Assembly (NCBI GenBank): GCA_025361935.1
Contig: JANYJB010000065.1
Coordinates: 30,278-94,277, forward strand
Reading direction: 5' to 3'
DNA length: 64,000 nucleotides
DNA from: Verrucomicrobiota bacterium
GTDB lineage: Bacteria > Verrucomicrobiota > Verrucomicrobiia > Opitutales > Opitutaceae
This document shows positions 5,965-39,024 of this stretch, in pieces; within the stretch, counting starts at the first letter, position 1; every line of letters starts with the position of its first letter. Made by a program: the position numbers and the translations under genes. The notes below the pieces were generated by a model. It searched no databases. It saw only the letters and a list, made by a program, of their open reading frames with translations, and was not told where the DNA came from.

Positions 5965-5969
5965 ACATT

Positions 5970-6056
5970 TCTTTCTCTTTCCTCTTTATCTTAATCTTTC
6001 TCTCGCGTTGCCGGATTTCCTGACGAAAGAGAACGATTAAGAGAAAGAAGAAAGAG
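5970..6056. repeat. Family-1 palindromic Y/R repeat (copy A)
   Basis: TCTTTCTCTTTCCTCTTTATCTTAATCTTTCTC...CGAAAGAGAACGATTAAGAGAAAGAAGAAAGAG; 5970-6002 is a 33-nt exact reverse-complement match to 10735-10767. Confidence 0.85.
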
Positions 6057-6073
6057 CCGAGCCTTCCACTTCG

Positions 6074-10271: not shown

Positions 10272-10767
10272 AATTCTTTCTCTTTATTCTTTATCTTAAT
10301 CTTTCTCTTCCGTGTCGGTAATATCCTCCAGACCATAAACAGCCTGCTCCTCCTCAATCGCCCCCGTCGAAACTTCACGCGAGAAACGAGCAATCAACCC
10401 GGCCGTCATGGAAACAACTTCCCGCAGGATCATCTTCCCCATTTCGGCCTCGGTCGCAGTCATCTTTTTCTTGGCGACGAGCACATCCAAACAAGCCGCG
10501 CATTCAACCGTCGATCCGCGAGCAATATCAAAATAACGGCAACGGTCTGGGTAGGACCGCTTACCGTTCCCCTCCGCCAAGTTTAGGGCAATACTTGTCG
10601 ATGCACGGTCCAACTGATCGCGGGCTGAAAGCTTCGCAGGGAGATCGTCTATAAAGGGTGAAGCCCAGACACTAAACCTCAAAGCCTCCTGATAAACCTT
10701 GAGTCGCTCATGATCAAATTGGACGGCCATACAGGAGAAAGATTAAGATAAAGAGGAAAGAGAAAGA
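10272..10767 (-). mobile_element. Putative IVS-like element: family-1 arms enclosing a four-helix-bundle ORF (copy B)
   Basis: Left arm AATTCTTTCTCTTTATTCTTTATCTTAATCTTTCTCTTCC and right arm GAGAAAGATTAAGATAAAGAGGAAAGAGAAAGA are imperfect inverted repeats; same arms occur without an ORF at copies A, C, D, E. Confidence 0.65.
10296..10730 (-). CDS. Four-helix-bundle protein (S23/23S rRNA intervening-sequence protein family, Avd-related)
   Basis: FDHERLKVYQEALRF...SARDQLDRASTSIALNLAEGNGKRSYPDRCRYFDIARGSTVECAACLDVL; ends TEEKD* inside the repeat arm. Confidence 0.93.
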   Translation of the reverse strand: MAVQFDHERLKVYQEALRFSVWASPFIDDLPAKLSARDQLDRASTSIALNLAEGNGKRSYPDRCRYFDIARGSTVECAACLDVLVAKKKMTATEAEMGKMILREVVSMTAGLIARFSREVSTGAIEEEQAVYGLEDITDTEEKD

Positions 10768-10769
10768 TA

Positions 10770-12152
10770 TCAGGTCACGCCGCTCAGCACGAGTTCGCCG
10801 TAAAGCGTGCTCACGCTGGCGCGGTCGATTTTCAGCGGCACGAGCTGGCCGACAAGGCGCGGATCGGCGTCGAAGATCGTCACGCGGTTGCCGCGCGTGC
10901 GGCCGGTGAAACGCCGGCCGGTCTTATCCGGTCCCTCGACGAGCACTTCCTCGACGGTGCCGAGCAGCGCGGCGTTGCGGCGCTCGGAGTTCTTGCGGAG
11001 AATGTCTAGTAGCACGGCGTTGCGGTGTTCCTTCACTTCGTCGGGAATCTGGTCGCCGAGTTCCGCCGCCGGCGTGCCGCTGCGGATGGAATACTTGAAA
11101 ATGTAAGCCATGTCGTAGTTGCACGCCTCGAAGAGCTCGCGTGTCTGTTCGAACTCCTCGTCGGTCTCGCCGGGGAAACCCACGATGATGTCGGTCGAGA
11201 AATACATGTCGGGCCGCACGGTGCGCAGGGCATCCACGATCTCCTTGTAGCGCTCGCGCGAGTAGGGGCGGTTCATCGCCTTCAGGATGCGGTTGCTGCC
11301 GCTCTGCATCGGGAGATGGACGTATTCGCAGAGTTTAGGGAGGCGTCCGTAGGCTTCGACGAGATCTTCCTTGAACCCACGCGGATGCGGCGAGGTGAAG
11401 CGGATGCGCTCGATGCCGTCGATGGCGTGGACCTTTTCGATCAACTGCACGAACGGCGACACGCCGCCGGTGTGCGCGTAGTCGCGGCGACCGTAACTGG
11501 TGACGATCTGCCCGAGAAGCGTGATCTCCTTCACGCCGCGCTTCGCGAGGCCCTCGCACTCGGCCACGATGTCTTCCATCGGGCGGGAGCGTTCGTCGCC
11601 GCGCGTTTTGGGAACGATGCAAAAATGGCAGTCCATGTTGCAGCCCTGCTGGATCGAGACGAAGGCGTTGACCTGCGGCGGAGCGGCTCCGTTCGCATCA
11701 ACCTCGGGCGCAAGGTGATCTTTGATGGTGTTCTGCGAACCGGCTTCCTCGGCGATGTCGATGATGGTTTCGCCGATGGGCACGCCGGCCTCGCGGGCGG
11801 CGCGGAGGTTGTCGAGGTAGTCAGGAACCTGGTGGAATTTCTGGGTGCCGACGATCAGGTCCACGTCGGGCAACTGGTCGAGGAGCGCGGCACCGCGGTT
11901 CTGCGCCATGCAACCAAGGATGCCGAGGACGAAGTCGGGCTGGTGCTTCTTACGATGCGAGACGTAACCTGCCTTGCCAATCGCCTTCTGCTCGGCGGCG
12001 TCGCGCACGGAGCAGGTGTTGAGCAGCATGATGTCGCAGGCGTTCTCGTCGTGGACGATGCGGTAGCCGCGGGCGCGAAGCATCGCCGCGACGGCATCGC
12101 TGTCGCGCTCGTTCATCTGGCACCCGTAGGTTTTGATATAGACCCGATTCAT
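10770..12152 (-). CDS. miaB: tRNA-2-methylthio-N6-dimethylallyladenosine synthase
   Basis: MNRVYIKTYGCQMNERDSDAV; radical-SAM CNMDCHFCIVPKTRGDERSRP; C-terminal TRAM-like region. Confidence 0.94.
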   Translation of the reverse strand: MNRVYIKTYGCQMNERDSDAVAAMLRARGYRIVHDENACDIMLLNTCSVRDAAEQKAIGKAGYVSHRKKHQPDFVLGILGCMAQNRGAALLDQLPDVDLIVGTQKFHQVPDYLDNLRAAREAGVPIGETIIDIAEEAGSQNTIKDHLAPEVDANGAAPPQVNAFVSIQQGCNMDCHFCIVPKTRGDERSRPMEDIVAECEGLAKRGVKEITLLGQIVTSYGRRDYAHTGGVSPFVQLIEKVHAIDGIERIRFTSPHPRGFKEDLVEAYGRLPKLCEYVHLPMQSGSNRILKAMNRPYSRERYKEIVDALRTVRPDMYFSTDIIVGFPGETDEEFEQTRELFEACNYDMAYIFKYSIRSGTPAAELGDQIPDEVKEHRNAVLLDILRKNSERRNAALLGTVEEVLVEGPDKTGRRFTGRTRGNRVTIFDADPRLVGQLVPLKIDRASVSTLYGELVLSGVT

Positions 12153-12262
12153 CCGAGGGAGGGTTTTAACTAAGCGGCCCCGAGGGAGGGTCAAACGGGA
12201 AAGCAGTCCCGGCTCGCCTACGGACGCACAACCAATAACCTGCGAGCAAGTCCCATAAGCGT

Positions 12263-22520: not shown

Positions 22521-22627
22521 CTCTTTCTTCTTTCTCTTAATCTTTCTCTTTCTCCGCCTTCTTCGCCTTCTCCGCCCCAACTGAATCGATCCGAGAAAGA
22601 TAAAGATTAAGAATAAAGAGAAAGAAT
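22521..22627. repeat. Family-1 palindromic Y/R repeat (copy C)
   Basis: CTCTTTCTTCTTTCTCTTAATCTTTCTCTTTCTCC...GAATCGATCCGAGAAAGATAAAGATTAAGAATAAAGAGAAAGAA; shares 22 nt (CTCTTTCTTCTTTCTCTTAATC) with the reverse complement of copy A right arm. Confidence 0.85.
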
Positions 22628-22645: not shown

Positions 22646-23575
22646 ATGAAATTCTTCCTCACCGGTGCATCCGGCCTCGTCGGCAGCGCCTTCGCCCAAG
22701 CCGCCGCCCGCCGCGGCCACCACGTCACCGGCATCGTCGGTTCCTTCGTCGGCCCGCTCCCCGGCGTGAACGTCAAACGCCCCCTCGATCTCACCGATGA
22801 CGCCGCGCTCACCGCCACCGTCCTAGACGCCTTCCCCGACGCCATCGTCAACTGCGCCGCCGTCGCCGAGCCCGCCCAATGTGACGCCGACCCCGCCCGC
22901 GCCCAAGCCCTCAACGTCACCCTCCCCGCCGCCCTCGCCCGCCTCGCCCACCACCTCAGCGCGAAGTTCATCCACCTCTCCTCCGAACAGGTCTTCGACG
23001 GCGCCAGCGCCTCCCCCTACTCGCTCCAAAGCACCCCCAAACCCATCAACCTCTACGGGCGCCAGAAACTCGAAAGCGAACGCCTCGTCCACACCGCCGC
23101 CCCCGAGTTTGCTATCACCCTCCGCGCCCCGCTCCTCACCGGCAACAGCCTCGCCGGCACCCGCAGCCTCCACGAACGCCTCTTCGCCGACTGGTCCGCC
23201 GGCAAAACCCCGCGCGTCTTCTCCGACGAAATCCGCCAGCCCTGCACCGCATCCAACCTCGCCGACCTCATGCTCGAACTCCTCGAACGCAACGATACCC
23301 GCGGCATCTACCACTGGGCCGGCGCCGATGCCCTCTCCCGCCACGAACTCGCCCGCCGCATCCGCGCCCATTTCAAACTTTCAGAAACTGCCGCGCCCAT
23401 CGAAACCGTCACCCGCGCCGCCGATCCGCGCGCCGCGTCGAAGCGCCAGGCCACACTTACGCTCGACCTCAAGCCCCTCGCCGGAAAAGTGAAGACGCCC
23501 ATCGAGACATTCGAAGCCCAGCTCGACCAACTCGTCATCCCTGTTCCCTTTCAGGCTTGGTATCACCAAGCCTGA
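22646..23575 (+). CDS. dTDP-4-dehydrorhamnose reductase-like (RmlD) SDR protein
   Basis: MKFFLTGASGLVGSAFAQAAARRGH; IHLSSEQVFDG; YGRQKLESERLV. Confidence 0.87.
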   Translation: MKFFLTGASGLVGSAFAQAAARRGHHVTGIVGSFVGPLPGVNVKRPLDLTDDAALTATVLDAFPDAIVNCAAVAEPAQCDADPARAQALNVTLPAALARLAHHLSAKFIHLSSEQVFDGASASPYSLQSTPKPINLYGRQKLESERLVHTAAPEFAITLRAPLLTGNSLAGTRSLHERLFADWSAGKTPRVFSDEIRQPCTASNLADLMLELLERNDTRGIYHWAGADALSRHELARRIRAHFKLSETAAPIETVTRAADPRAASKRQATLTLDLKPLAGKVKTPIETFEAQLDQLVIPVPFQAWYHQA

Positions 23576-23577
23576 AA
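23549..23577. other. Perfect 13-bp hairpin spanning the stop codon of the RmlD-like gene
   Basis: TTTCAGGCTTGGT-ATC-ACCAAGCCTGAAA. Confidence 0.75.
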
Positions 23578-23579
23578 AA

Positions 23580-23686
23580 TCGTTCTCGTTCTCTTAATCT
23601 TTCTCTTTCTCCTCTGCCTCCGCCTCCACCTCCGCGCCCCGAATCGATCCGAGAAAGAGAATGATAAAGAATAAAGAGAAAGATTA
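23580..23686. repeat. Family-1 palindromic Y/R repeat (copy D)
   Basis: TCGTTCTCGTTCTCTTAATCTTTCTCTTTCTCC...GAATCGATCCGAGAAAGAGAATGATAAAGAATAAAGAGAAAGATTA; shares GAATCGATCCGAGAAAGA with copy C; 26-nt exact reverse-complement match to 38959-38984. Confidence 0.85.
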
Positions 23687-38267: not shown

Positions 38268-38969
38268 ATGAAGGTTGTCGTGCTCTGTTCCGGCGGGATG
38301 GATTCGGTGACCGCGCTCCACTGGGCGCGGGCGCACCACACCGTCGCGGCCGCGTTGAGCTTCGACTACGGCGCGAAGCACAACGCCCGCGAGCTGCCCT
38401 TCGCCGCCGAGCACGCCGACCGTCTCGGCATCCGCCACGAGATCGTGAAGCTCGATTTCGTGAACCGCCTCTTCGCCTCCGACCTGCTCACCTCGGGCGG
38501 TGACATCCCCGAGGGCCACTACGAAGCGGCCAACATGAAGCAGACGGTCGTCCCCTTCCGCAACGCCGTGATGCTCTCCATCGCCACCGGCTTTGCCGAG
38601 AGCGCGGGCGCCGAGGGCCTCGTCATCGCCGCGCACGGCGGCGACCACGCGATCTACCCGGATTGCCGCGAGGCGTTCATGCAGGCGATGGGCGACGCCA
38701 TGCGGCTCGGCACCTACGCTGAGATCGCGCTGCTGCGGCCTTTCATCACCTTCACCAAGGGCGGCATCGTCGCCGAGGGCGCGAAGCTCGGCGTGAATTT
38801 CGCCCGCACCTGGTCCTGCTACAAGGGCGCCGCCATCCACTGCGGCAAATGCGGCACCTGTGTGGAGCGCCGCGAGGCGTTCATCGAGGCCGGCGTGCCC
38901 GACCCCACCGCCTACGAGAGCACCGGCCCCCTGCCGCTCAAACCAACAAAGGAGAACGAGAAAGATTAA
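38268..38969 (+). CDS. queC: 7-cyano-7-deazaguanine synthase (last codons overlap a family-1 repeat arm)
   Basis: VVLCSGGMDSVTALHWARAHH; LSFDYGAKHNARELPFA; SCYKGAAIHCGKCGTCVERREAF. Confidence 0.95.
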   Translation: MKVVVLCSGGMDSVTALHWARAHHTVAAALSFDYGAKHNARELPFAAEHADRLGIRHEIVKLDFVNRLFASDLLTSGGDIPEGHYEAANMKQTVVPFRNAVMLSIATGFAESAGAEGLVIAAHGGDHAIYPDCREAFMQAMGDAMRLGTYAEIALLRPFITFTKGGIVAEGAKLGVNFARTWSCYKGAAIHCGKCGTCVERREAFIEAGVPDPTAYESTGPLPLKPTKENEKD

Positions 38970-39024
38970 GAGAACGAGAACGACGCGACATTTGTATCGT
39001 TCTCGTTCTTCGTTCTCGTTCTCC
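38952..39024. repeat. Family-1 palindromic repeat (copy E, arm order reversed)
   Basis: GGAGAACGAGAAAGATTAAGAGAACGAGAACGA...TCGTTCTCGTTCTTCGTTCTCGTTCTCC; contains the queC stop codon. Confidence 0.82.

Follow-up and report, generated by a model that had tools for sequence, protein, structure and literature searches.

A single-copy S23p/IVP-family gene between inverted short-repeat arms next to miaB in Opitutaceae: a candidate gene-carrying member of a small hairpin system

Genes for small helix-bundle proteins of the S23p/IVP family are common in genomes, and we know of no function established for them. One such gene lies immediately downstream of miaB in an Opitutaceae bacterium (Verrucomicrobiota), within the 64,000-nt stretch of DNA analysed here (the window), which comes from an incomplete assembly (2.48 Mb, 88% complete). 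A first-pass annotation, made from the sequence alone, had proposed that this gene fills the loop of a hairpin that also exists in an empty form, and had seen in the two forms a possible autonomous/non-autonomous pair of mobile elements acting between mRNA genes instead of in rRNA. The locus raises the question of what a gene of this family is doing between inverted repeats outside rRNA, and of whether gene and repeats move.

The 144-aa product of the gene exceeds the curated cut-offs of both family profiles, PF05635 (68 bits against a cut-off of 33.8) and TIGR02436 (59 bits against 24), and is modelled by AlphaFold2 (pLDDT 88.9) as a four-helix fold for which the top Foldseek matches are 2gsc and 2rld, followed by the DGR Avd structures 4dwl and 8ub7. 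Profiles and modelled fold thus agree with the original assignment to an S23/IVP-type family related to DGR Avd. The likeness to Avd is one of fold; no reverse transcriptase was found among the genes neighbouring the ORF, and template/variable repeats were not seen. The ORF is under purifying selection, with a median dN/dS of about 0.15 among the orthologues compared, a rough figure because dS is high. Its neighbours are miaB, a 179-aa protein gene that matched neither Pfam nor PHROG, and a gene that is kinase-like by sequence. A search for a defence or toxin role returned zero PADLOC model matches, and the candidate of a phage gene was rejected, the PHROG search being negative and the relative 2gsc unmatched among 50,697 phage records. 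A search of the open-access literature, in which relevant work may be missed, yielded no paper on TIGR02436. The same genome encodes a second PF05635 protein (L017), of another subtype, the gene of which lies between inverted CCGGAAA heptamers.

On the minus strand, the miaB stop codon is followed by a pyrimidine-rich arm, the ATG of the ORF, a purine-rich arm and the next gene (Table 1). The stop codon of the ORF (TAA, 10298-10296) falls within the 3′ arm, so that the C-terminal tail ..EEKD is arm-encoded. The imperfect inverted repeats that had been noticed at first reading could be mapped to 10767-10735 and 10307-10273, and the exact 33-nt match that had been remarked for the right flank was located at 5970-6002, in a hairpin without an ORF. 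A 20-nt arm core, GAGAAAGATTAAGATAAAGA, has 11 matches in the window at up to three mismatches, against 0 expected from shuffles. The repeat period of the window arms is a mixed 6-7 nt, and is a clean 7 nt in most relatives. Compared with dinucleotide shuffles, better folds are obtained for the ORF-containing element and for all four of the ORF-less window hairpins, with z values from -3.0 to -5.2. A stem-loop that encloses the ORF of a PF05635 protein in its loop is likewise the anatomy of the intervening sequences (IVSs) in the 23S rRNA of Leptospira and Coxiella, and in the Coxiella IVS tandem heptamers (GACAGAT) are found just upstream of the S23p start (PMC4990558). An rRNA location was rejected for the window element, which lies between miaB and the next gene; no Rfam match was obtained within window positions 1-45000, and a 16S/23S rRNA signature was found in the flanks of none of 139 PF05635 loci. 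Besides its position outside rRNA, the window system differs from the 23S rRNA IVSs in having dispersed ORF-less copies, in the tie between repeat type and protein, and in the exchange of the cassette at an mRNA gene junction.

Table 1. Positions of the element, its neighbours and related hairpins in the window
Feature	Coordinates	Strand	Remarks
ORF-less hairpin between two CoaBC-type genes	5969..6058	plus	arm identical to the 5′ arm of the window element
Downstream gene, 179 aa	9728..10267	minus	bounds the orthologous site on the other side
3′ arm, purine-rich, with last ORF codons and stop	10273..10307	minus	
Four-helix-bundle protein gene, 144 aa	10296..10730	minus	PF05635 / TIGR02436; S23p/IVP/Avd fold
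5′ arm, pyrimidine-rich on the coding strand, TCTTTCTCTTTCCTCTTTATCTTAATCTTTCTC	10735..10767	minus	identical to the arm at 5970-6002
miaB (by sequence)	10770..12194	minus	upstream of the element; served as host marker
ORF-less hairpin, same family as the window element	22521..22625	plus	fold z -4.9
ORF-less hairpin, same family as the window element	23582..23680	plus	fold z -3.0
ORF-less hairpin with GAGAACGA-type arms	38950..39010	plus	fold z -4.6

Besides these four, the rest of the genome contains about ten further hairpins that lack the ORF but have related arms. A genome-wide search for the arm, which the first-pass annotation had suggested, detected GAGAAAGATTAAGA 15 times in the 2.48-Mb genome (reversed control, 0), and most of these copies are the paired arms of intergenic ORF-less hairpins; the two forms do have arms in common. 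At the orthologous site of the hairpin at 5969-6058, relatives contain a different hairpin, no hairpin, or overlapping genes. These comparisons show hairpins with the same or related arms to be scattered in the genome, the one tested occupying a site that in relatives is empty or filled differently. The number of dispersed arms is also associated with the gene, the figure being 4.6 for genomes that carry the ORF and 0.95 for those lacking it (Fisher test, 2e-7; genus-stratified permutation, p 5e-5). Carriers in the genus of the window hold 15, 25 and 15 dispersed copies and non-carriers 0-1, while in genus g27 the number was not associated with ORF presence, and many dispersed arms were detected in three genomes despite the absence of the window ORF subtype (23 in G027, 16 in G040 and 14 in G160). 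In many ORF-less hairpins (that at 5969-6058 and those of L001, L009 and L011-L014) a shared loop motif close to CTGACGAAAG adjoins the purine arm, and a near-perfect palindrome, TTCAGGCTTGGTATCACCAAGCCTGAA, abuts an ORF-less hairpin at window positions 23550-23580.

A single-copy gene located beside its own repeats, together with dispersed gene-less inverted-repeat hairpins and a tie between each repeat family and its protein, is the arrangement described for REPIN/RAYT systems (PMC3116915). The window system is unlike these in that its protein is a PF05635 helix bundle with no known catalytic domain, rather than a Y1 transposase, and in that its repeat is a degenerate heptamer array of mixed 6-7-nt period, rather than a REP. 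Conceivably, the hairpins owe their movement to a different enzyme, for instance a Y1 (RAYT/IS200-type) transposase, and the helix-bundle gene is a passenger; Y1_Tnp genes are indeed present in 12 of 12 genomes checked, the window genome having one. However, no GA arms lie within about 1 kb of that gene, which bears a palindrome of a different kind (G000:C21, L321; an 18-nt perfect inverted repeat downstream), and the repeat type tracks the helix-bundle protein; a Y1 mover is therefore considered very unlikely.

Mobility would predict empty orthologous sites, and such sites can be detected. Of 30 orthologous miaB junctions seven carry the ORF element. Many, those of two congeners (L178 and L180) among them, are empty, the genes lying 7-26 nt apart; some junctions are occupied by ORF-less hairpins of other sequence (L179, L185 and L190). 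Of the 252 family genomes, 52 have the window subtype, with few exceptions as one copy and with few exceptions adjoining miaB, and in about 45 genomes it is single-copy at one conserved site. Neither of the two conditions that the first-pass annotation had named as arguing against mobility applies, since sites without the element exist and arms are found at other four-helix-bundle loci (see below). The earlier idea of an autonomous/non-autonomous pair is thus supported in its essentials and needs amending in one respect: the arms are common to the ORF-bearing and ORF-less forms, but the ORF copy is site-bound and the ORF-less hairpins are the part that disperses. As a single-copy gene hardly ever found away from miaB, the ORF copy is better likened to a RAYT gene, likewise single-copy, than to an autonomous transposon. 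No target-site duplication was recognised at the sites compared (the miaB junctions and the 5969-6058 site), where inverted arms are present.

Two arm types, A (GAGAAAGA) and C (GAGAACGA), were followed on a protein tree built without the arm-encoded tail and on a tree of the host MiaB proteins; the window protein is of type A, those of L234 and L227 are of type C. Arm type changes twice on the protein tree, as low a number being reached in 0 of 500 shuffles, and nine times on the MiaB tree, as if it were distributed at random (429 of 500 shuffles as low); an AU test on the MiaB data rejected holding the protein clade together (p 5e-46). These trees show that arm repeat type goes with the protein and not with the host. 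In one species pair (L211 and L234) the flanks on both sides are 93-100% identical, whereas identity drops to 61-82% in the block that runs from one arm to the other, a cassette swap bounded by the arms; no clean case of a sharply bounded swap was found among six more pairs, which are too diverged to tell. The comparisons show that the gene forms a single unit with both of its inverted short-repeat arms, and that species have exchanged this unit at a fixed site. The bounded swap and the restriction to one copy, at a conserved site, in about 45 genomes would also be expected of passive allelic exchange, in which a diverse locus is swapped by homologous recombination and the arms provide short homology, with neither active mobility nor repeat recognition. 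Such exchange leaves unexplained the dispersal of ORF-less hairpins, the association of these hairpins with the gene when genus is controlled for, the same architecture with other repeats in unrelated places and phyla, and the insertions within genes described below, and it seems improbable as a full account of the locus.

The architecture recurs around other members of the protein family; a lack of arms at other four-helix-bundle loci would, according to the first-pass annotation, have argued against mobility. PF05635 loci were picked as best matches, not randomly. In the Opitutaceae set (n=32; the 30 best PF05635 loci of the family and the two of the window genome) most loci show inverted arms hugging the ORF, each locus having its own repeat: the inverted-arm score is at least 12 at 21 of 32 loci, against 0.3% of positional controls, and at least 10 at 27 of 32, against 3%. 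Autocorrelation at lag 7 is 0.43-0.44 on both flanks, compared with about 0.22-0.30 at other lags that are not multiples of seven; in the Opitutaceae set, other lags and the controls lie at about 0.25. Inverted arms are similarly found across Verrucomicrobiota, and a score of at least 12 was reached by 36 of 78 further, multi-phylum loci (Bacteroidota, Chloroflexota, Acidobacteriota, Planctomycetota, Proteobacteria, Nitrospirota, Cyanobacteria, candidate phyla and Methanophagales), against 0.2% of controls. Degenerate heptamer arrays flank the gene on both sides at 87 of 136 PF05635 loci (null, 3% per side), about a third of the 136 being without clear arrays on both sides, and an arm is typically 28-35 nt long, or about five heptamers. 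Chance or low complexity was ruled out by positional, mismatched and direct-orientation controls. Although the window arms are repetitive and GA-rich, as low-complexity purine-rich slippage arrays lying by coincidence beside a small gene would be, the inverted symmetry, two-sided heptamer periodicity and locus-specific matching are far outside the positional and mismatched controls, leaving coincidence with hardly any credibility. An anatomy of a 7-nt locus-specific repeat in arms of ∼30-35 nt is thus shown, by comparison of flanking sequences, to recur around the protein family in many phyla. This recurrence suggests that tiny mobile elements of a mostly undescribed kind are widespread.

Repeat and protein also appear to belong together beyond the miaB site. 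The left arm of a locus is a better fit to the right arm of that locus than to about 99% of the right arms found at others, and protein identity is correlated with heptamer similarity across phyla (r 0.34; within-phylum permutation, p<1/3000), a correlation that could partly reflect transfer of whole elements with no binding specificity. Among 16 near-complete genomes, matches to a TCAGC pattern number 58 in G020 and 52 in G040, both of which are TCAGC-armed, and matches to a TAAGC pattern number 18 in the TAAGC-armed G071; G040 is an exception, with 23 TAAGC matches and no TAAGC-armed gene among those checked. Such natural protein/repeat pairs, differing by one base per unit, offer material for decoding specificity. 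From the co-segregation of repeat and protein we infer that the arms are recognised by the protein.

The locus probably belongs to a small selfish hairpin system resembling REPIN/RAYT, as the member that carries the gene; in this system a single-copy arm-recognising protein is accompanied by dispersed hairpins. The protein would bind the units repeated in its own arms, the ligand being RNA or single-stranded DNA. Relatives are pentamers that form rings (PMC4990558), and with ∼five units per arm it may be speculated that about one heptamer unit is bound per protein subunit. Binding to the arms would help both the element and the hairpins that lack the ORF to be copied, to insert or to be exchanged. 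A host enzyme may be borrowed for this, as the helix-bundle protein has no known catalytic domain. The system would then provide a model for the spread of tiny hairpins with a small protein of this kind, and the link between S23p/IVP genes and heptamer repeats offers them a testable function, repeat recognition.

Some relatives of the element are found inside genes. Elements L018, L068, L070 and L072 are located in DNA methylase genes, at least some of the PglX type, and L092 in a gene that is Mfd-like by sequence. In each the host frame is open across the entire element, the ORF overlaps it in one fixed relative frame, and the remaining third frame has several stops; the frame that corresponds to the open host frame is stop-free at eight loci, against 1.1 expected from synonymous shuffling. 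The joined pglX flanks of L070 matched 303 plasmid records, and in 301 of these the match covers at least 80% of the query. Among the best matches listed, most bear a BREX PglX annotation and have no insert of this kind. The linker that harbours the elements of L018 and L070 is occupied, in a pglX-like gene of a Planktothrix agardhii plasmid (L276; AP017995.1), by a shorter, four-copy in-frame repeat insert. Rickettsia palindromic elements are palindromes inserted in frame in protein genes, comparable in this to the insertions in the L068 methylase gene and in Planktothrix pglX. They have, to our knowledge, no partner protein gene, unlike the elements described here, of which ORF-bearing forms exist with the host frame kept open.

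That the hairpins fold well as RNA and are mostly intergenic, that the protein is under purifying selection, and that fold relatives act in RNA-protein complexes (the DGR RNP is among the Foldseek matches) might instead point to a host-serving RNA regulon, with the protein binding mRNA hairpins, the scattered copies serving as regulatory targets (stability, attenuation) and the arms as a means of autoregulation. However, the patchy occupancy of the orthologous site, with congeners empty, and the insertions of relatives within pglX-type and Mfd-like genes look selfish and not regulatory, the element tree conflicts with the host tree, and differing hairpins are found at one gene junction. A regulon is accordingly regarded as unlikely, if worth keeping in mind, and a selfish hairpin system is preferred.

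The heptamer repeats of cyanobacteria and other bacteria have been noted for decades without an owner. Most of 11 PF05635 loci on cyanobacterial plasmids have the same anatomy as the window element; their arrays, for example GGGAGTA, GGGAACA and TCAGAAG, are similar to heptamer repeats long known in cyanobacteria. The relevant passages of published reports describe heptamer repeat classes that have been repeatedly replaced, against phylogeny, in the P6b region of the Nostoc trnL intron (PMC4476775), GGGAATC heptamer arrays in Xanthomonas (PMC4692102), and GGGACCG and MTYCTGA heptamer elements in Geobacter (PMC2700814). These repeats and the cyanobacterial STRR are, like the arms studied here, degenerate 7-nt arrays, often forming hairpins and both inter- and intragenic; in the passages concerned they are tied to no protein, unlike the arrays of cyanobacterial plasmids between which a PF05635 gene is found. 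The protein of L095, which has GGGAATC arms, matches 2gsc, an indirect hint of a possible link between XCC0516 and the Xanthomonas GGGAATC arrays. Heptamer-armed elements may also account for orphan 7-base repeats. A wider proposal, offered tentatively and somewhat more apt to fail than to hold, is that hairpins with arms of about five degenerate heptamers constitute an unrecognised class of mobile elements in many bacterial phyla and at least some archaea, and that a protein-repeat code allows each family to be read by an S23p/Avd-like pentamer of its own. Elements of this class would exist in ORF-bearing and ORF-less forms and insert between genes or, in frame, within them (their own gene overlapping the open host frame), and the 23S rRNA IVSs and the cyanobacterial, Xanthomonas and Geobacter heptamers would be special cases.

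The PF05635 family has been listed in cas loci (PMC3936711). This listing may reflect insertions instead of a CRISPR function, and PF05635 genes in cas operons would then perhaps not be CRISPR components. In plasmids of Anabaena sp. 90 and Picosynechococcus (L311 and L312), a PF05635 gene with inverted arms is located between cas6/cas4 and cas10/cmr3.
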